Shown here: positions 404-10,407 of the stretch, one piece after another | Numbering within the stretch: the stretch's first letter is position 1 | Layout of the letters: every line of letters starts with the position of its first letter | NCBI RefSeq assembly: GCF_900156805.1 | Contig: NZ_FTOQ01000015.1 | Span: 1 to 64,000 of the forward strand | Reading direction: 5' to 3' | DNA: 64,000 nucleotides | From: Roseivivax lentus | Lineage (GTDB): Bacteria > Pseudomonadota > Alphaproteobacteria > Rhodobacterales > Rhodobacteraceae | The notes under the pieces: model-generated | The model's database searches: none | Seen by the model: the letters and a program-made list of their open reading frames with translations, nothing else | Told to the model about the DNA's origin: nothing | Position numbers and translations under genes: made by a program

Positions 404-2488
404 TTAAATTGCGTCTCTGATCGCTGGTAACGCTTGGGCGCCAAGGCGTTCGCGGCACAGCGCTGCGATCGCGTCAACTGCGTGAGCGCGATCCGCGAAG
501 CGCTGCGCGATGGCGACGTGGCGCGCTAAAGAGACCCAGTGCAGAAGATCGACCCGATCTTCGCTCGGCAGCGCGCGAGTCTCGGCGTATCCCGACAGGA
601 ACTCTTGGGCGAGATGACCAAAGCCATCGCCGTGGCTGCCACGGCGCAAGTCAAGCTCTGTCAGATGCGCAAGGAAGTTGCCGATGTCGATGGCCGCATC
701 GCCGCGCGCGTGCAAGTCCAGATCGACCAGCCAGAGCGTATCGGGCCCAACCACGACCTGATCGAAGTAGAAATCCCGGTGCAGTCCGACCGGTGCGGCG
801 GGCGGCAAGTTGGCCAAACGCGTGACGGCAAGCTCTGCCAGATCGGGATGGGGGCCGCCCGAGACCGCGCGGTCCAGAACGGACAGTTCATCTCCCATGC
901 TCCAACGTCTGTCCGTCTGGGCCGGGGTGTCGTGCAGCATCGCGAGGGCCCGGCCCGTCCGGCGCATTGCTGCGTCAGCCGTCGGCCCATCCAGAAGGTC
1001 GCCCAACGGCGCGCCGTCGATCTCTGCCTGTAGCCAGACGGGCGGATCCTCGTAGGTTCCAAAAACTGGCGGCACCCCGACGCCCTTCTTCCCGTCCAGC
1101 CCGGCGGCGCGCAGGCGCTGTTGAACCCGAGTGGCGTGGGTGTCCGGGCCCTTTGCTCTCAGCTTGCCAAGCACGCCGTGTCCATAGCGGATCAATGCGC
1201 GACGCCGGGGCTTCAGTCGCATCAGGGTTGCTTCGCCCGTCGTACCCGGTTCGGGCCGCAGCGCGAGTGCTGCGGACAGATGCGGGGTCGGGGCCCCGGC
1301 GCCGTCCAGCACCGCCGCCGCGCGGTCCAGAACGGAAGCGGCTTCGGCCTCCCAATCGCGGCGGCGCGTGCGGAACCCCTCGTCGGCGCGGGCCAGCAAC
1401 GCACGCGCGCGCCACGCCGCCAGGTCGACGTCGGACACCTGCCCGCCAGCCGCTCTGTACCCTGCCAACAGCGCGTCGCCCGAGGCCTCTGCTGTGTCCG
1501 CCCCGCGCAGCCCGTCCAAATCGAGCGCGGCGAGAGCGGAGCCAAGGTCACATGCGGCTGGCCCCTGGCAGGCCCGGTCCCAGTCAACGATCCGCGCGCC
1601 TGTGGAACCGTCCACGATCTGGTCGGCGCTGAAATCGCCGTGCAGGGCGACCGGAGCCCCCGAGTGCGGCGCGGGCATCCGTGCAGCAAGGTCCTTCGCC
1701 GCGTCTTCCAGCCTTGGCAGAAGCCAGCCCAAGTTTTCGGCCTGCCGCATGGTATCGGCGGGTTTGAGTGCGAGCGCTTTATCAGCGGGCGCGATGGCGT
1801 GTGCCGCGTTAAGAGCGCGCCCCGCACGCACGAAGGCTTGCAGCGACGCGTCCGCCGTCAGCGCCTCGCCCGGCACCCATTCGCTGGCGATGGCTTTCGC
1901 GCGCGCGCAGGTTCCGATCAGGCCCACGCCGTGCGCGGCCGCCATACGGGCACCGACCAACGCACGATCATAGTCGGCCTTTCGCGCGTGTATCTTCAGA
2001 ATGGCGCGAGGCCCTGCGGGTCCGTCCGCGCGCAGCACGAGGCGACGTCCGGGTTTGAAGCGAAGGAGCGTCAGGCTGCAGCCCGAAAGGCTGACGCTGA
2101 ATAGAAGAGCATCCCGCGCCGCGGGATCGGCGAGCGCGCGCGCCGCACGCGGCCTTCGCAGCAGCGCAAGTGGCACCAACACGGTCTGGACATCATCAAA
2201 ATAAACGGCGTCGTCCTTCCAGGCAGGCCTTGCCCGCACCTCTTCGTAGCGTTCGATCGGATAGGTCGCGGCCATCCACGCGCCAAACCGCCCGTTCTTC
2301 GGAACAAGTCCCGCGATGCAGGATGTCCACGGCTTGTAAAGAAGGTAGGAGGTGCGCATCGGGCCAAGTCCCGCGCGCTCTGCCAAGGTGGTGGCGTCGA
2401 GCAGGCCCGGCAGGCCAGGCAGTTCCGGCTCTCGCGAGGCAAGGCTGTCGTCCCCGGACGAGCCAGTCGTTTCAGGATGCGAGCGCAT
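404..2488 (-). CDS. Tandem phosphotransferase-fold (APH-like) protein, last gene of glycosyltransferase operon
   Basis: A protein of about 694 residues with two aminoglycoside-phosphotransferase/choline-kinase-like domains. The first has a catalytic-loop motif HGDFSADQ (H283, D285) followed by IVDWD; the second has HRDFYFDQ (H570, D572) followed by LVDLD and DIGN. In both loops the family's metal-binding Asn (HxDxxxxN) is Gln (Q290, Q577). The family transfers phosphate from ATP to small hydroxyl compounds such as sugars or amino alcohols; the substrate here is unknown, and the context suggests a sugar or lipid head group. A farther upstream ATG (2620) would overlap the ABC gene by about 150 bases; the ATG at 2488 overlaps it by only 17 and is chosen. 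An aminoglycoside-resistance role is not supported by the double-domain form or the neighbours. Last gene of a five-gene operon. Confidence 0.75.
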   Translation of the reverse strand: MRSHPETTGSSGDDSLASREPELPGLPGLLDATTLAERAGLGPMRTSYLLYKPWTSCIAGLVPKNGRFGAWMAATYPIERYEEVRARPAWKDDAVYFDDVQTVLVPLALLRRPRAARALADPAARDALLFSVSLSGCSLTLLRFKPGRRLVLRADGPAGPRAILKIHARKADYDRALVGARMAAAHGVGLIGTCARAKAIASEWVPGEALTADASLQAFVRAGRALNAAHAIAPADKALALKPADTMRQAENLGWLLPRLEDAAKDLAARMPAPHSGAPVALHGDFSADQIVDGSTGARIVDWDRACQGPAACDLGSALAALDLDGLRGADTAEASGDALLAGYRAAGGQVSDVDLAAWRARALLARADEGFRTRRRDWEAEAASVLDRAAAVLDGAGAPTPHLSAALALRPEPGTTGEATLMRLKPRRRALIRYGHGVLGKLRAKGPDTHATRVQQRLRAAGLDGKKGVGVPPVFGTYEDPPVWLQAEIDGAPLGDLLDGPTADAAMRRTGRALAMLHDTPAQTDRRWSMGDELSVLDRAVSGGPHPDLAELAVTRLANLPPAAPVGLHRDFYFDQVVVGPDTLWLVDLDLHARGDAAIDIGNFLAHLTELDLRRGSHGDGFGHLAQEFLSGYAETRALPSEDRVDLLHWVSLARHVAIAQRFADRAHAVDAIAALCRERLGAQALPAIRDAI

Positions 2489-4289
2489 GCGGTTGTTCCC
2501 CTCTTTGGCGGGCATGGGCGTTGGCGAACCAGCCGCCGTTTCGAATGAGACCGGCGGGCGCGCCGTCCTCTGCCACGCGACCCCGGTCAAGGACGACAAT
2601 GCGGTCGCAAGCGGCGGCAAGTGCGAGATCGTGGGTAATCAAAAGGGTCGTGCGCCCCTTGGACACTTCGCCGATGGCCCGTGCGACGGCCTCTTCCGAG
2701 GGGCCGTCAAGACCCGTCGTCGGCTCATCGAGGATCAGCATTGGCGTCCGGCGCAGCATCGCGCGCGCCAAAGACAGCCGCTGCCGCTGCCCCGCCGACA
2801 ATGAGCCTCCGCGCTCGGCGATATGGGTCTCGTATCGGTCCGGCAGGGCGTCGATGAAGTCCTGTGCCGCGGCGGCTTTGGCGGCGGACCCGATCTCGGC
2901 ATCGCTGACGTCGCGATCCAGCCCCAGGACCAGGTTCTCCCGCACCGTGCCCGAGACGATCAATGGTTCTTGCGGCACAAGGGCGATCTGGGTGCGCAGG
3001 CTGGCCATGGTGACGTCGCGCAGGTCGTGTCCGTCTGCCATCACCCGCCCGGCGTCTGGATCATACAGGCGCAGGGCGAGGGCCGCGAGCGTCGATTTCC
3101 CGGTCCCAGAGGGGCCGACGACGGCAACCCGCTCTCCGGCCTCTATCTTCAGATCAAGCCCGTTGAAGACGGGCGGGCCGTCAGCGTGGGAAAATCGCAC
3201 CCCTTCGAAGGCCAGCGCACCCGAAAGGGCGGGCGCAGGCATCGCGTCAGGGCGGTCGGCCACGGCATCGGTCTCGTCGAGAAGGCCGACGACCCGTTCG
3301 CCCGCGGCCATGGCCTTGGCAAGACGCGCGGCGTATTTGGCGTAGCCGCGCACCGGCCGGAAGGTGTGCTTGAGGTAGGTGACGAAGATCAGAAGGTCTC
3401 CGGGCGTGATCCGTCCGGCAAGAACCTGCAATGTCCCGAAAAACAGGATGGCTGCAAGACCGACGCCTGCGAGCACGTCGACCGACCGCTCCAGCCCGGC
3501 GGTCAGGCGCGCGCCGCGCAGGCCGGCCTTCATGTCGCCGTCGTTTGCGCCGCAAAATACCGCGGCAGAGCGCTCTTCCAGTCCCAGCGCCTGAACCGAG
3601 CGGATGCCGGCCAGCGTTTCTGTCGAGGTCGCGGCCAGATGGCCCTGCCGCTTGCGCTGCGTGCGGCTGACCTCTCGAATACGGCCGGTCAGCACGCGCG
3701 ACAGGATCATCAGGACAGGCAGCGGTGCCAGCGCCACAAGCGCGAGCTGCCAATCGAGCCAGAGCATCACGCCCACCATGCCCACGAAGATCAGCACGTT
3801 GGCGGCCAGCGGCATCGCCGCCGTCACCATCGTTTCCTTGAGCATGCCCACGTCGCCCACCAACCGCATGGTCAGATCGCCCGCGCGAGACCGCGTATGA
3901 AACCCGACCGACAGGGACTGGAGGTGACGGAACAGGTCGGCGCGCACCTTGGTCAGCACCGTATTTCCGACCTTCGCAAACCCCATCGTGGCGAGGAACT
4001 GGAACAGGGCGCGCAGCAGCACGGCGGCCAGAAGGCCACCGGCGCAAAGCGAGAGTATCACCATCGGATCATAGGCGCCGAGGGCAGGCTCGCCCGAGGC
4101 GGTGGGCACGACGCTGTCGATCACGAACTTGAGCGCCCATGGCTCGGCCAGCTTGGCGACGGTGGACAGGATCAGTGCCAGAACCGATCCGACCAGCACC
4201 AGACGGTGCCCGACGAGGTAGGGAGCAAGGCGACGCACGATCCGTCCCAGACCGGGCAGCGTTTCGCGAAGATGGGTGGGACGGCTCAT
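2472..4289 (-). CDS. ABC exporter, fused permease and ATPase (MsbA-like)
   Basis: Type I half-transporter of 605 residues: an N-terminal membrane domain with about six helices (residues 20-310) and a C-terminal nucleotide-binding domain. Walker A is GPSGTGKST (K398), the signature is LSAGQRQRLSLARAM, Walker B is LILDEPTTGLD, and the switch His lies in LLITHDL. Such proteins work as homodimers in the inner membrane and flip lipids, glycolipids or peptides outward. The ATG overlaps the stop of the upstream GT4 gene (ATGA), indicating translational coupling. With three glycosyltransferases upstream, an export role for a lipid-linked glycan or glycolipid is the likeliest reading; the substrate cannot be read from sequence. 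Length and motifs are complete. Confidence 0.88.
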   Translation of the reverse strand: MSRPTHLRETLPGLGRIVRRLAPYLVGHRLVLVGSVLALILSTVAKLAEPWALKFVIDSVVPTASGEPALGAYDPMVILSLCAGGLLAAVLLRALFQFLATMGFAKVGNTVLTKVRADLFRHLQSLSVGFHTRSRAGDLTMRLVGDVGMLKETMVTAAMPLAANVLIFVGMVGVMLWLDWQLALVALAPLPVLMILSRVLTGRIREVSRTQRKRQGHLAATSTETLAGIRSVQALGLEERSAAVFCGANDGDMKAGLRGARLTAGLERSVDVLAGVGLAAILFFGTLQVLAGRITPGDLLIFVTYLKHTFRPVRGYAKYAARLAKAMAAGERVVGLLDETDAVADRPDAMPAPALSGALAFEGVRFSHADGPPVFNGLDLKIEAGERVAVVGPSGTGKSTLAALALRLYDPDAGRVMADGHDLRDVTMASLRTQIALVPQEPLIVSGTVRENLVLGLDRDVSDAEIGSAAKAAAAQDFIDALPDRYETHIAERGGSLSAGQRQRLSLARAMLRRTPMLILDEPTTGLDGPSEEAVARAIGEVSKGRTTLLITHDLALAAACDRIVVLDRGRVAEDGAPAGLIRNGGWFANAHARQRGEQPHALAS

Positions 4290-5443
4290 GCGACCACGCG
4301 ATCCGGCGCGGCGGCCATGGCGCGACCAAGGACGCGGGCGGCGACACCTGCCCAGGTGCGGGTACCAAGGACGGCGTCACGACCGTCGGCACCCAGGGTG
4401 CGCCGCAGTTTCGCGTCCGCCGCCAATTGGGCCAGCCTGTCCGCGAGGGCCTGCGGATCGCCCGCGGGGCCCACCAGGCCGGTAAGTCCTTCCGATACGA
4501 TGCCGGGAAGATGGCCCACACGGGTGACGACCACCGGCACGCCCGCGGCCATGTATTCGTAAACCTTGAGCGGCGAGAAATAAAAGGCTTCGCTCTCGCC
4601 ATAGGGTGCGCAGCCCGCATCCATCCGCGCAAGGTGGGCGGGCACCTCGGCGGCGGGAACGAGGCCCGTGATCTCTGCGGCGTCCGCACAGCCCGCCGCT
4701 GCCAAGCGGCGCTCTATGTCGGCGCGTTCGGGTCCGTCGCCCACGATCAGAAGGCGCGCGTCAGGCACCGAGGCGCGCAGCAGGGCAAAGGCGTCGATCA
4801 GCAGCGGCATGCCGTGCCACGGCTTGAGAGAGCCGAGGAAGCCGACGGTGAACGGATCGGCGGCCAGCGGGGCAGGAGCAGGAAAGCGCGCCGGATCGAC
4901 GGCGTTGGGCTCTACGGTCACGTATTGGGCGCCCATCTGCCGCGCGTGGTCGGCCACGGGCTCGGACACGGCAGAAACCAGCGTGGCAGCCGACATGGCG
5001 CGCTGCGCAGAGCTATCTGCCTCGGCGGCCAGGGCCAGCGTGCGATGCGCCGCGGCCTCTGCCGCCAACGGGGCATTCACCTCCAGCACACTCGGGACGC
5101 CTTGGGCTCGCGCCCACTCCGTGGCGCCATGGGCGTAAAGGGCGTGGCGCTCGTACACGATATCAGGCGACAGGGTATCGAGCGCGGCACAAACGTCCGC
5201 GTTCGCGGCAAGGAGCCCCTTCGCCCGCGCTTCGGGCGCTCCCTTGGGGGCGGGCGGCAGCGCCAGCATCGCGACCTGCGCCAGATCAGCGGGCGGCGTG
5301 CCTTCCAGGCGCGGAGACAGGACGGTGACCGAATGGCCCGCCGCCGTCACCGCGCGCAGCATCTCCTGAACATGGACAGACGCGCCTTTTGCGCCCCAGA
5401 CGGGAATGCCGGGATCGGTCGTGACATAGGCGATGCGCATCAT
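4286..5443 (-). CDS. Glycosyltransferase family 4 protein
   Basis: GT-B fold retaining glycosyltransferase of about 385 residues. The N-terminal half starts with RIAYVTTDPGIPVWGAKGAS, the usual GT4 opening with the GASxH acceptor-side loop. The C-terminal half has VGFLGSLKPWHG, LLIVGDGPE and EAFYFSPLKVYEYMAAG, the EX7E nucleotide-sugar motif. It would add a sugar from a nucleotide donor to a lipid or glycan at the cytoplasmic face of the membrane. Two adjacent ATGs (5443 and 5440) are possible; 5443 makes an ATGA overlap with the upstream gene. The 3' end overlaps the ABC exporter start in the same way, so the genes are translationally coupled. Donor and acceptor are unknown. Confidence 0.88.
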   Translation of the reverse strand: MMRIAYVTTDPGIPVWGAKGASVHVQEMLRAVTAAGHSVTVLSPRLEGTPPADLAQVAMLALPPAPKGAPEARAKGLLAANADVCAALDTLSPDIVYERHALYAHGATEWARAQGVPSVLEVNAPLAAEAAAHRTLALAAEADSSAQRAMSAATLVSAVSEPVADHARQMGAQYVTVEPNAVDPARFPAPAPLAADPFTVGFLGSLKPWHGMPLLIDAFALLRASVPDARLLIVGDGPERADIERRLAAAGCADAAEITGLVPAAEVPAHLARMDAGCAPYGESEAFYFSPLKVYEYMAAGVPVVVTRVGHLPGIVSEGLTGLVGPAGDPQALADRLAQLAADAKLRRTLGADGRDAVLGTRTWAGVAARVLGRAMAAAPDRVVA

Positions 5444-6681
5444 GCCGCCTCTTTCGCACTGGGGCGCGCGGACAGCGTTTCCGCCCATTGGGCGCGCAGG
5501 GCAGAGGCCGCACCGCGGGCGTCGAAGTCGCGCTCGATCCGCGCGCGGGCACTGGCCGACAGACGGTCGCGGAGGGCCGCATCGTCCAGAAGACGGGTCA
5601 TCGCCGCCGCAAGCGCTTCGGGGTCGGATGCCGGTGCGATCAGTCCCGTCTCGTCGTCCTGCACGAGTTCGGGGATGCCCACCACATCGCTCGACACCAC
5701 GGGCAGACCAAGAGCCATCGCCTCGACCAGCACGGTCGGCATCCCGTCGCGATTGCCGTCCGAGCCGACGACACAGGGGCAGGCCATCAGCGCCGCGCCC
5801 CGGATCATCTCGATGACCTCTGACTGGGGGCGGGGGCCTTCGAGCACAACGTGGTCGGACACGCCCGCATCCTCGATCTGGCGGGCGAGGTCTTCGCGCT
5901 CTTCGCCGTCGCCCACGATGCGGCAGACCGGCGCCAGACCGTCCTGTGCCATCAGGCGAATGGCCTCGATCAGGATGTGAAAGCCCTTCTTTTCCACCAA
6001 ACGACCGACCGCGAGGATCTCGCGCGCCTCGGGTGAGGGCGTCTTGTAGGCGAAGCGATCGAGGTCGAGACCGTTGTAGACCCGCGTCAGCCGGGGTCCG
6101 GGGCCGAAGCGGTCACGCAGGTGGGCCAGGTTGTAATCCGAGACGGTGACGCAAAGGTCGGCGTCGCGCAGCTTAAGGTCCAGGTGCTGTGGGTCTTCGT
6201 AGTCGTGGTAAATGTCCTTGGCGTGCGCCGTAAAGCTGTAGCCTATACCCGCCATGGCCGCCGCAAGCCGCGCGACCGACGTGGCGACGGTGCCGAAATG
6301 CGCATGCAGATGCACAAGGCCTCGGCGCTTGGCCAGCACGGCCAGTTCCAAGGCCTGCGCCACGTCCCGTCCAGAGGCGATGCCATCTGACGCGCGTAAC
6401 GCCTCCCATGCGCCGGGCAGTTCGGCCCGCGCCTCGTCCAGCCGATGCCAGAGGCCTTCGGTCCCTGAAAACCGATCCTTCAGGCGGGTGACGGGCGCGC
6501 GCACACGGCCCAGCATGTCCTGGAAGTGCGTCTCTTCCACGCTGCGCAGCGCGAAGATGTCGATCTCTTGGCCCGCGGCCTCGTGGGCCAGGATTTCGGT
6601 GACCACGAAGGTCTCGGAAAAACGCGGATACCGCTTGAGCACGTAGCCGATGCGTCCGACAGGGGGAGCGAGTGTGGTCAT
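5440..6681 (-). CDS. Glycosyltransferase family 4 protein (WcaL/AmsK-like)
   Basis: About 413 residues, GT-B fold. The N-terminal YPRFSETFVVTEILAHE motif and the later LHAHFGT and FTAHAKDIY segments are typical of the WcaL/AmsK branch of GT4, which acts in exopolysaccharide repeat-unit assembly. The C-terminal half has ILAVGRLVEKKGFHILIEA, CRIVGDGEERE and DGMPTVLVEAMALG (EX7E). The frame is open upstream to 6918, but the ATG at 6681 is preceded by AAAGGAG at good spacing and starts the conserved domain, so it is chosen. Second gene of the operon, 17 bases after the MurG-like gene; its stop overlaps the next GT4 start. Which glycan it builds is not known. Confidence 0.88.
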   Translation of the reverse strand: MTTLAPPVGRIGYVLKRYPRFSETFVVTEILAHEAAGQEIDIFALRSVEETHFQDMLGRVRAPVTRLKDRFSGTEGLWHRLDEARAELPGAWEALRASDGIASGRDVAQALELAVLAKRRGLVHLHAHFGTVATSVARLAAAMAGIGYSFTAHAKDIYHDYEDPQHLDLKLRDADLCVTVSDYNLAHLRDRFGPGPRLTRVYNGLDLDRFAYKTPSPEAREILAVGRLVEKKGFHILIEAIRLMAQDGLAPVCRIVGDGEEREDLARQIEDAGVSDHVVLEGPRPQSEVIEMIRGAALMACPCVVGSDGNRDGMPTVLVEAMALGLPVVSSDVVGIPELVQDDETGLIAPASDPEALAAAMTRLLDDAALRDRLSASARARIERDFDARGAASALRAQWAETLSARPSAKEAA

Positions 6682-6698
6682 GATGGAATCTCCTTTAG

Positions 6699-7928
6699 TC
6701 AGGCGACGAGGGCCGGTGCGGTGCTGCAGACCTTCGACGCAAGCGCCTGAACGCGCGCCAGGCCGCCCATGTCGGGTTGCCGCTCTGGTCTTGGCGCGGG
6801 GGCGGCCATCCAGGCCGACAGGGCGTCCGAGGTCAGGTCTGCGGGCAGAATCATCGAAACGAGCCCCCGCGCGGCAAGCCGCTCGGTGCGCATGACCTGC
6901 TCTCGACGGGGGGCGCAACGCGGCACGATCAGCGCGGGAGGATCAAGCGCCAGCATCTCCATGGTGGTGTTGTATCCGCCCATTCCGACGATGCGGGCGG
7001 CGTTGGCCATCACCCCGATGGGTTCGCTCAGAAACGGCAGAACCGTCAGGTCGTCGCGGTCCCGCGTCAATTCAGCGATACGGTCCTTGGCCTCACGCGG
7101 CATTTGGGTGCCGGTGACAAGGACGCCGCGATGGCCATCCGGCATCCGGGATCCGGCGAAGGCTTCGCAAAGCGTAAGCCCGTCGCGCCCCCCGCCGACG
7201 GCACAGTAGATGTATGGGCGCGGATCGGCCATTTGCACGGCCGCCAGGTCGCGGGCCGCCTGATCGGCATCGCGGCGCCCCGTCGGGTCGAGGTAGCCCA
7301 CATGCATCGCCTTCCCGCCAAGCGGCCCCAACATGCAGCAATCCGACAGGATGTCGTAGAAGGCCGCGTCGCCGTAGATCCAGACCGCGTCGTAAAGATG
7401 GCGCACCGTCTCGAAGTTGCGCTGGCGCAGCCACTGGCGGCGCACCGTCGCACACTCGTCGATCACATCGCGCAGGCCCAAAACGATACGCGCGCGACCC
7501 CGCGCGCGCAGCGCGTGCAGCGTGTCGTCCAGCTCAAATTGCGCGCCGCGCGGCACGTTGTCGACGATCACCAGGTCGGGATCGAACCCTTCGGCGGCGG
7601 ACCGGATGGTGCGGGAGCGCAGTGCCGAAAGACGCGCCAGATCGCCGCCCAGGTCGCGCGGCCGGTAGCTGCCGTCGCCCTCCTTGGCGTAGGCCGGCAG
7701 GGTCACGCAATCGACTCCGGCGGGCATCGTGAAGGCGCCCGCCTCGCGCATTCCACCGATCAGCAGGATCTCGGGGCGCGGCTCGATCTCGGACAGGGCG
7801 GCGGCGAGCAGCAGGTTGCGGCGCAGGTGCCCGTACCCCAACGTGTCGTGCGAATAGAGCATGATCCGCAACGGCGCCGCCGGACGGTGGGGCATCGGAT
7901 CGAACCGGGCGTCGAGCCTCTCGAACAT
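6699..7928 (-). CDS. Predicted glycosyltransferase, MurG-like (COG4671 type)
   Basis: About 409 residues with a GT-B-like architecture. The N-terminal motif YSHDTLGYGHLRRNLLLAAA, the central VIVDNVPRG and GLRDVID segments and the C-terminal GMGGYNTTMEML segment match the predicted glycosyltransferases related to MurG and UDP-GlcNAc transferases. First gene of the minus-strand operon, divergent from the sensor kinase. Two starts compete: ATG 7937 directly abuts the only Shine-Dalgarno (AGGAG), which cannot serve it, whereas ATG 7928 lies nine bases downstream of that AGGAG and is chosen. Its place at the head of an operon with two GT4 enzymes and an exporter suggests it makes the first or a committed sugar transfer, which is inference. 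Confidence 0.8.
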   Translation of the reverse strand: MFERLDARFDPMPHRPAAPLRIMLYSHDTLGYGHLRRNLLLAAALSEIEPRPEILLIGGMREAGAFTMPAGVDCVTLPAYAKEGDGSYRPRDLGGDLARLSALRSRTIRSAAEGFDPDLVIVDNVPRGAQFELDDTLHALRARGRARIVLGLRDVIDECATVRRQWLRQRNFETVRHLYDAVWIYGDAAFYDILSDCCMLGPLGGKAMHVGYLDPTGRRDADQAARDLAAVQMADPRPYIYCAVGGGRDGLTLCEAFAGSRMPDGHRGVLVTGTQMPREAKDRIAELTRDRDDLTVLPFLSEPIGVMANAARIVGMGGYNTTMEMLALDPPALIVPRCAPRREQVMRTERLAARGLVSMILPADLTSDALSAWMAAPAPRPERQPDMGGLARVQALASKVCSTAPALVA

Positions 7929-7967
7929 CTCGGGCATCTCCTGGGTTTCTTGCCCGGGCTTTGCCGA

Positions 7968-7985
7968 GCGTCACAAATCTGTAAC
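7968..7985. promoter_or_regulatory. Pho-box-like direct repeat
   Basis: Two half-sites, GTCAC at 7970 and GTAAC at 7981, are 11 bp apart. The 18-mer agrees with the textbook Pho box CTGTCATAWAWCTGTCAY at 14 of 18 positions by my count. It lies about 40 bases upstream of the chosen start of the glycosyltransferase operon. It may bind PhoB, or be a degenerate site for the OmpR-type regulator encoded next door. Confidence 0.35.
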
Positions 7986-8007: not shown

Positions 8008-8045
8008 GTTAGAAGACGGTTAGAGATCGTTAGAGTTTGGTTAGA
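8008..8045 (+). promoter_or_regulatory. Four phased GTTAGA direct repeats, probable response-regulator site
   Basis: GTTAGA occurs at 8008, 8019, 8029 and 8040, that is at 11, 10 and 11 bp, so all copies face one side of the helix. OmpR/PhoB-family regulators bind such head-to-tail 10-11 bp repeats, and a regulator of that family is encoded just downstream (9682-10407). The array sits midway between the divergent glycosyltransferase operon (80 bases away) and the kinase gene (72 bases away), so it could control both. A weak -10 (TATCAC, 8084-8089) lies downstream of it toward the kinase. Confidence 0.65.
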
Positions 8046-8116
8046 ACATGCAGATTGCCCATGCTCCGCTTACAGACCGGTGCTATCACGGTGCTCAGGA
8101 ACACGCGGGGGACCGG

Positions 8117-9685
8117 ATGCGCTTTACGACCAAGATCGCCATCGCACAGGCTGTGCTGGTGCTTGTGGCGGGGGCGGTGGCGGTGCTCATACTGACGACG
8201 CTGCGCACCAATCAATCCGTCATGCGAGAGATTTCCGACAGCTACGAGCAGACGCTGACGGTGAAGGGCATCGAGCAGATGGCCGACAATTACTCCGAAC
8301 AGATTGCCGAGCATGTCATCCTGGGCCCCGAGTCCGAACAGGCGGAAAAGGCGCGCGACGAGCTTCTGGGCGTAATAGAGACGATGGAACGGCAGGTCGC
8401 CGCGGAAATCGAGGAGCTGCGCGAGGTCGATGACCTGGAAGAGATCGCCGAGGAGCAGCTGGAACTGGACCGCATGACGGGACTGCGCGAGGCCGTCTTG
8501 CGGCTGGAAGAGGCACGCCTGCGCTTGGTCCACGCGTTGCAACAGGGCGAGACCGCGCGCGCCATCGAGATCTACAGCGGCGAGATCGAAGAGGTGCTGG
8601 ACGTAACGCTCGATCGCCTGACCGAGGATTCGGTCGCCCGCGAACAGCTTGAAGTCCGTGAAGCGCTTGCCGACTCCCAAGAGGCGATGCACCGCTTGCG
8701 ATGGATCGCCGCGGGGCTGGGGCTGGCGTCCGTGCTTGTGGCCGCGGGGCTGTCGCATTTCCTGAACCGTTCGGTTCTGCGGCCTGTCGCCCGTCTGGGC
8801 GATGGCGTCGCGGCCGTTTCAGGCGGCGATCTGGACCATCGGATCACGGTGAATCGCAAGGACGAGTTCGGTGACCTGGCAAAGGGCTTCAATCGCATGA
8901 CGGCCGAGATCGACACCCAGCGCGGCGCGCTGATCGCTGCGCGCAACAATCTGAAACGCGAGGTGGACGAGCGGACGCAGGAACTGCGCGATGCGCTGAG
9001 GGACCTTGAAAGACAGTCCAAGCAGCGGTCCCGCTTTCTGGCGGACATCAGCCACGAGTTGCGCACACCGCTGACAGTGCTGCGCGGACGGGCCGAGGTG
9101 GCGCTGCGCGATCCCGAAACTGATCAGACGGCGATGCGGACCGTGATCGAGCGAACCGTGGGCACCGCGACCAAGCTGGGCCGCCTGGTGGAAGATCTAT
9201 TGTTCCTTGCCCGTTCAGAGGCCGGAGTGATCCCGATCGAACGCGGCCCTGTGGTCCTTCAGGACGTGCTTGCCGACACGTTGCTCGACAGCCGAGAGCT
9301 TGCACGGTCCAAGCGCATCGCCTTGCTGCCGCGTCAACCGGCGGTGCCCATAGAGGTTACAGGAGACGCGGACCGGCTGCGACAGGCGCTGCTGATCCTG
9401 CTCGACAACGCCGTGGAGGCTGCGCCCGAAGCCAGCACGATCCAGGTGACGCTGAGCCGCGACGATGCCACGGTCATCGAGGTCGCGGATGAGGGGCCGG
9501 GCTTTTCCGAGGACGAGATCGCCGAGCCGTCCGTTCGCTTCCGCAAAGGGCGCAGTCGCGGAACCGGGCTTGGCCTGTCCATCGCCGCCTGGATCATGGA
9601 AGGTCACGGTGGCTCGTTAAGCGTGTCCAACGGCTCGGGCGGCGGTGGCGTCGTCCGACTTGTACTGCGCGAGGACGCACCATGA
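8117..9685 (+). CDS. Membrane sensor histidine kinase
   Basis: Two-component kinase of 522 residues. Transmembrane helix 1 is residues 8-28, followed by a periplasmic domain of about 165 residues that is strongly acidic and helical with no Cys, then helix 2 (about 195-217), a HAMP linker (to about 272), the dimerisation domain with ISHELRTP (phospho-acceptor H313), an N box LLDNAVEAA, G1 DEGPGF and G2 GTGLGLSIA. The ATG at 8117 follows GGGGGACC and starts the membrane anchor; an upstream in-frame ATG at 8048 has no such support. The stop overlaps the regulator start (ATGA), so the two are co-translated. The signal is unknown; the sensor looks like an antiparallel helical bundle. It probably controls the divergent glycosyltransferase operon. 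Confidence 0.9.
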   Translation: MRFTTKIAIAQAVLVLVAGAVAVLILTTLRTNQSVMREISDSYEQTLTVKGIEQMADNYSEQIAEHVILGPESEQAEKARDELLGVIETMERQVAAEIEELREVDDLEEIAEEQLELDRMTGLREAVLRLEEARLRLVHALQQGETARAIEIYSGEIEEVLDVTLDRLTEDSVAREQLEVREALADSQEAMHRLRWIAAGLGLASVLVAAGLSHFLNRSVLRPVARLGDGVAAVSGGDLDHRITVNRKDEFGDLAKGFNRMTAEIDTQRGALIAARNNLKREVDERTQELRDALRDLERQSKQRSRFLADISHELRTPLTVLRGRAEVALRDPETDQTAMRTVIERTVGTATKLGRLVEDLLFLARSEAGVIPIERGPVVLQDVLADTLLDSRELARSKRIALLPRQPAVPIEVTGDADRLRQALLILLDNAVEAAPEASTIQVTLSRDDATVIEVADEGPGFSEDEIAEPSVRFRKGRSRGTGLGLSIAAWIMEGHGGSLSVSNGSGGGGVVRLVLREDAP

Positions 9686-10407
9686 GCGATGCCGCACGCA
9701 TTCTGCTGGTAGAGGACGACTTCGAGATCTGCGAGGTCGTGACATCGGGCCTGCGCCTGGAAGGGCACGAAATCACCGTGCGCACCCATGGCGCGGGGCT
9801 GGTCGAGCATGTCGGCGAGACCGCGCCCGACCTCGTCGTTCTCGATCGGACTCTGCCCGATTCCGAAGGCGCGGAACTCTGCCGCGCCCTGCGGTCCGCC
9901 GGAAGCGGCGTGATGATCCTAATGCTGACGGCGCGCGACAGCCTGGAGGAAAAGCTTGAAGGCCTCGATGCGGGTGCAGACGACTATCTCACAAAGCCAT
10001 TCGCGCTGTCTGAACTGACGGCGCGGGTGAAGGTGCTCTTGCGCCGCGCGGGCCATGCAGGGCCCGGGGGTCAGGTGCCGTCCGCCTCGACGCTCGGCCC
10101 CCTTCGGCTGGACCGCGCCGCCGTCGTGGCCGACGTCGACGGCACGCCTCTGTCGCTGACAGCGACCGAGTTCGAGCTGCTTGCGGCGCTGCTGGAGAAC
10201 CAGGGCCGTGTGATGAGCCGGACCGAGCTGCTCAAGGCCGTCTGGGGCTACGACTTCGATCCGCATACCAACGTGGTCGAAGTCTATGTCTCCTACCTGC
10301 GCCGAAAACTGCGCGAGGCGACCGACGCCGTCATCCTGCGCAACGTGCGTGGCTTCGGTTACACGGTCGAAGCATCCGATAAAGTAGATCCGCCGGAGAA
10401 AATTTGA
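9682..10407 (+). CDS. OmpR/PhoB-family response regulator
   Basis: 241 residues: a receiver domain (1-120) with acidic pocket E11-D13, phospho-acceptor D55 (VVLDRTLPD), T83 and K105 (LTKPFA), and a winged-helix DNA-binding domain (about 135-235) with the usual LTATEFELLAALLE and RRKLREA helices and the GFGYTVE wing. It is partnered by the kinase upstream (ATGA overlap). Family members bind direct repeats with an 11 bp period, which fits the GTTAGA array between this operon and the glycosyltransferase genes; control of both, including itself, is inferred. It is the last gene of this transcription unit. Confidence 0.92.
   Translation: MSDAARILLVEDDFEICEVVTSGLRLEGHEITVRTHGAGLVEHVGETAPDLVVLDRTLPDSEGAELCRALRSAGSGVMILMLTARDSLEEKLEGLDAGADDYLTKPFALSELTARVKVLLRRAGHAGPGGQVPSASTLGPLRLDRAAVVADVDGTPLSLTATEFELLAALLENQGRVMSRTELLKAVWGYDFDPHTNVVEVYVSYLRRKLREATDAVILRNVRGFGYTVEASDKVDPPEKI

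Follow-up and report, generated by a model that had tools for sequence, protein, structure and literature searches.

Within the window analysed in the present study, a whole stretch of 64 kb, two divergent transcription units start at positions 7937 and 8117 and are separated by a gap of 179 bp. The first gene on the plus strand encodes a sensor histidine kinase of 522 aa with HAMP, HisKA, and HATPase_c domains (8117..9685), the start codon of which was assigned to 8117, not 8048, from an alignment of orthologues. The second gene encodes a response regulator of 241 aa (9682..10407), the start of which overlaps the end of the kinase gene by 4 bp, and this kinase-regulator pair is conserved in relatives. 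Its domains assign the regulator to the OmpR/PhoB family: a receiver domain (Response_reg, PF00072, 86.9 bits) and a C-terminal winged helix (Trans_reg_C, PF00486, 91.6 bits) each scored over the cut-off. The minus-strand unit, which runs from 7937 down to 404, is a glycosyltransferase/ABC-exporter operon that begins with a GT28-like glycosyltransferase (6699..7937; weak match to Pfam PF04101) and is completed by genes for two GT4-type glycosyltransferases, an ABC exporter resembling MsbA, and a protein whose kinase-like matches are weak (404..6918); no Pfam match was obtained for the 404-2620 protein. This five-gene glycosyltransferase/ABC-exporter/kinase-like cluster (404-7937, L064-L069) is conserved as a block and is scattered over Rhodobacterales genera.

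The intergenic region carries four copies of GTTAGA on the plus strand, at 8008-8013, 8019-8024, 8029-8034, and 8040-8045, and the start-to-start spacing of 11, 10, and 11 bp is exactly that described in an earlier sequence-only reading of this DNA, the placement of which between two divergent units, one with an OmpR-type regulator, was also confirmed by the Pfam domains and gene layout. With the kinase start at 8117, the array falls outside coding sequence. The same reading regarded a chance origin as very unlikely. GTTAGA occurs four times in the window (4.2 expected), with all copies inside the 38-bp stretch of the array, and the spaced four-copy pattern matched once in the window versus in none of 100 dinucleotide shuffles, while no GTTAGA-N4/5-GTTAGA other than those of the array was found in the 4.44-Mb genome. 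A degenerate form of the four-copy pattern with up to three mismatches gave three matches in 395 genomes of the family, namely, the array itself, its orthologue in G267 (the one genome available for its genus), and one partial match.

A search of the same 395 genomes with the GT28-like protein as a marker placed the glycosyltransferase/ABC-exporter cluster in six further genomes at 49-81% identity; in four of these, the kinase-regulator pair adjoins it with the divergent arrangement of the window, and the other two lack an adjoining pair. This marker replaced a kinase-only search among relatives, which gave paralogues without the site. A profile built from five kinases then yielded 80 loci, in 14 of which the pair was divergent from a glycosyltransferase; these 14 loci, which partly overlap the four genomes with both cluster and pair, are from Tateyamaria, Actibacterium, Jannaschia, Palleronia, Histidinibacterium, Pararhodobacter, Celeribacter, and other Rhodobacteraceae. 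Scanning of the genome contigs with a single sequence returned no matches, and an alignment-based scan succeeded. At least one NTTAGA half-site was present 77-164 bp upstream of the kinase in all 14 divergent loci, and 10 of them had a clear direct repeat, RTTAGA-N5-RTTAGA, at 11-12 of 12 positions. Eight sequences, including the window, matched the consensus at all 12 positions and three (L072 and L087-88) at 11, with two partial boxes at an interval of 31 bp in Celeribacter (L087-88). The remaining four (L073-75 and L079) scored 10 of 12 because the second half-site has drifted. The weaker boxes were not all significant singly (the score of L073 was reached by 16 of 300 shuffles), yet they lie in the corresponding place. 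Loss of the array from close relatives that keep both operons, which the sequence-only reading had named as evidence against its proposal, was thus not encountered; at least one half-site is kept in all of them, with a degenerate second one in L079 and L073-75.

Four copies at 11-10-11 bp recur in L070, L071, and L080. In L070 and L071, the half-sites lie at -109, -98, -88, and -77 from the kinase start, exactly as in the window, and the second half-site of the distal box (-109/-98) is ATTAGC and CTTAAG, respectively. From these variants and the intact array of L080, the repeat unit is a box of two half-sites, and the four copies thus amount to two 17-bp units, RTTAGA-N5-RTTAGA, spaced by 21 bp (two turns of the helix). 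The distal box, GTTAGA-AGACG-GTTAGA (8008..8024, plus strand; half-sites 8008-8013 and 8019-8024), and the proximal box, GTTAGA-GTTTG-GTTAGA (8029..8045, plus strand; half-sites 8029-8034 and 8040-8045), both occupy a conserved place in L070 and L071.

Regarding the promoter of the kinase-regulator operon, the alignment of 12 lineages on the last half-site revealed a -10-like hexamer that starts 38-39 nt downstream of this half-site, with a mean weighted score of 6.5 against a best value of 5.0 among 2000 shuffled sets, and a T-rich, -35-like patch approximately 16-17 nt past the last half-site. Since the -10 lies anywhere from 27 to 95 nt ahead of the kinase start codon in these lineages, gene position does not account for the constant distance between the box and the -10. 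The proximal box of the window lies at the same distance from the -10-like hexamer as the single box of other orthologues. The predicted -10 hexamer of the window is TATCAC (8084..8089, plus strand), which is weak, and no clear -35 accompanies it. Transcription would then start at approximately 8096, which would place the boxes between approximately -88 and -51, upstream of RNA polymerase, as expected for an activator.

Regulators of the OmpR/PhoB family bind 6-bp half-sites approximately 5 bp apart as head-to-tail dimers after phosphorylation (PMC3973317, PMC4660055), and the head-to-tail layout with a period of approximately 11 bp observed here, 11-10-11 bp in the window and 11 bp in relatives, matches the sites of this family (PMC3973317), as the sequence-only reading had assumed. 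By analogy with these regulators, we expect a dimer of the 9682-10407 protein on each box and activation of the operon that encodes it, and the array very probably represents two tandem boxes for this adjacent regulator, from which it would activate its own promoter from approximately -88 to -51. We infer the following sequence of events: the membrane kinase (8117-9685) would phosphorylate the regulator, head-to-tail dimers of which would each be held by one 17-bp box; with both boxes filled by phosphorylated dimers on the same face of the DNA, RNA polymerase would be recruited to the promoter at approximately 8084-8096, and the kinase-regulator operon would be switched on in a manner of positive autoregulation. 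The same bound complex, located inside the shared region of 179 bp, may in addition regulate the glycosyltransferase/exporter operon on the other side.

The best-described case with this geometry is PmrA (PMC3973317, PMC4660055), the half-sites of which are 6 bp long, lie 5 bp apart, and are bound head-to-tail; the PmrA (BasR) box of enterobacteria consists of CTTAAG/NTTAAT half-sites with a 5-bp separation (PMC3973317). The array shares with the PmrA box the 6-bp half-sites, the 5-bp gap, the 11-bp period, and the head-to-tail direct repeat, and the regulators are of the same fold family (4s04 was matched), whereas the half-site is RTTAGA instead of CTTAAK and the boxes are two in tandem. The regulator itself scored 148.4 against an NCBIfam equivalog cut-off of 330 for PmrA. 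The PHO box of PhoB consists of CTGTCAT repeats of 11 bp and overlaps the -35; the array similarly comprises direct repeats with an 11-bp period close to a weak promoter, but lies upstream of the -35 and has a different half-site. In OmpR promoter arrays, several tandem dimer sites are located upstream of the -35, an arrangement that the predicted dimer sites of the array resemble, in contrast to its sequence and period. The scores of the regulator were also below the NCBIfam cut-offs for PhoB (173.8 against an equivalog cut-off of 296.2) and OmpR (134 against 331), and the kinase-regulator system, which would operate in the manner of these systems, is a separate pair, distinct from PmrA, PhoB, and OmpR by these cut-offs. 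In gammaproteobacterial relatives of the kinase (L093, L099, L100, and L102), repeats of the PmrA-box-like type ATTAAG-N5-ATTAAA are present upstream on the minus strand, which suggests that half-sites have drifted over the wider family.

An alternative that we consider possible, albeit rather unlikely, is that the adjacent regulator binds the boxes with the divergent glycosyltransferase/exporter operon as its main target and autoregulation as a secondary role. Wherever Rhodobacterales loci contain both the pair and the cluster, these two units diverge from the box, which makes the cluster an obvious target given that the genome has no other convincing site for the regulator. A whole-genome search for a regulon with one mismatch gave counts no higher than a reversed-pattern control, and, therefore, a wider regulon is not claimed; two extra one-mismatch sites were inspected, and nothing related lay beside either. 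The box goes with the pair and not with the sugar genes. In 25 glycosyltransferase loci without an adjoining kinase-regulator pair, two of which contain the same cluster while the rest are more distant homologues, no RTTAGA pair was found and matches were at the chance level of 7-10 of 12 positions. Distant relatives of the pair in Mesorhizobium, Phyllobacterium, and Ferirhizobium, which have no sugar cluster, keep the repeat on the other strand, as GTTAGA-AATTG-GTGAGA or a sequence close to it, and this argues against the alternative. Moreover, the spacing is locked to the -10 on the kinase side, and a search for a conserved -10 on the glycosyltransferase side gave no comparably sharp peak. 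Because the box keeps a fixed position relative to the kinase-regulator promoter, autoregulation is the role with the strongest support, with control of the divergent operon by the regulator being possible. Among the Rhizobiales loci without a sugar cluster (L082-L085 and L090), the reversed 11-bp repeat lies approximately 150-210 bp upstream of the kinase match, and some loci have a weaker third half-site, such as GAGAGA-TTCAG-GTTAGA-AATTG-GTGAGA in L090.

In another alternative, the phosphorylated regulator on the array would lower the transcription of its own operon. Autorepression of two-component operons is known, and the sign of regulation is unreadable from sequence; however, a position of approximately -88 to -51, which is upstream of the -35 region, together with the weak promoter favours activation, and we regard autorepression as improbable. 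It is more improbable still that the repeats serve another DNA-binding protein, such as PhoB or a different member of the OmpR family. The geometry is common to OmpR-family proteins, and a PHO-box-like 11-bp repeat, GCGTCACAAATCTGTAAC (7968..7985, plus strand), is located 22 bp away. Similar repeats, oriented toward the kinase, were found in L073, L075, L077, and L079 (CTGTCATGCGGCTGTCAT in L079), and none of 200 shuffles scored as well in the window or in these four loci; the repeat is weak or absent in other orthologues and is not present in L071, L080, or L081. As a possible second input, it may tie the region to phosphate starvation. Nevertheless, the GTTAGA box tracks the kinase-regulator pair and is nearly unique in the genome, unlike the site of a global regulator. 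A chance repeat, structural DNA curvature, or a leader RNA element is hardly credible because, although short phased repeats are able to bend DNA, the half-sites are kept across genera at one fixed distance to the -10, and RNA structure in the leader was rejected with a fold not beyond shuffles (z = +1.33).

The array is a well-supported new example of a well-known type of element, and the sequence-only reading was right in what it observed and, so far as sequence shows, in how it was interpreted. No described match to a GTTAGA/TTAGA operator was found among the titles and abstracts that literature searches listed, and a combined literature search on Rhodobacteraceae found no paper. We tentatively propose, with more reserve than for the boxes themselves, that the pair may be an undescribed two-component system dedicated to one Rhodobacterales surface-glycan cluster, with an operator that some lineages carry in duplicate (boxes 21 bp apart) and Rhizobiales in reverse orientation, and with an added PHO-box-like input for phosphate starvation in some lineages. 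The pair gains a predicted operator, a predicted promoter, and a probable target from sequence alone, and the prediction links it to a five-gene cluster for glycan synthesis and export that is patchy in Rhodobacterales. Since box number, orientation, and leader length vary among the relatives, the prediction is easy to test, and its interest, which we consider moderate, stems from the natural series of variants at hand. If true, these loci would provide a compact natural series on how the number and orientation of boxes set the response of an autoregulated switch.
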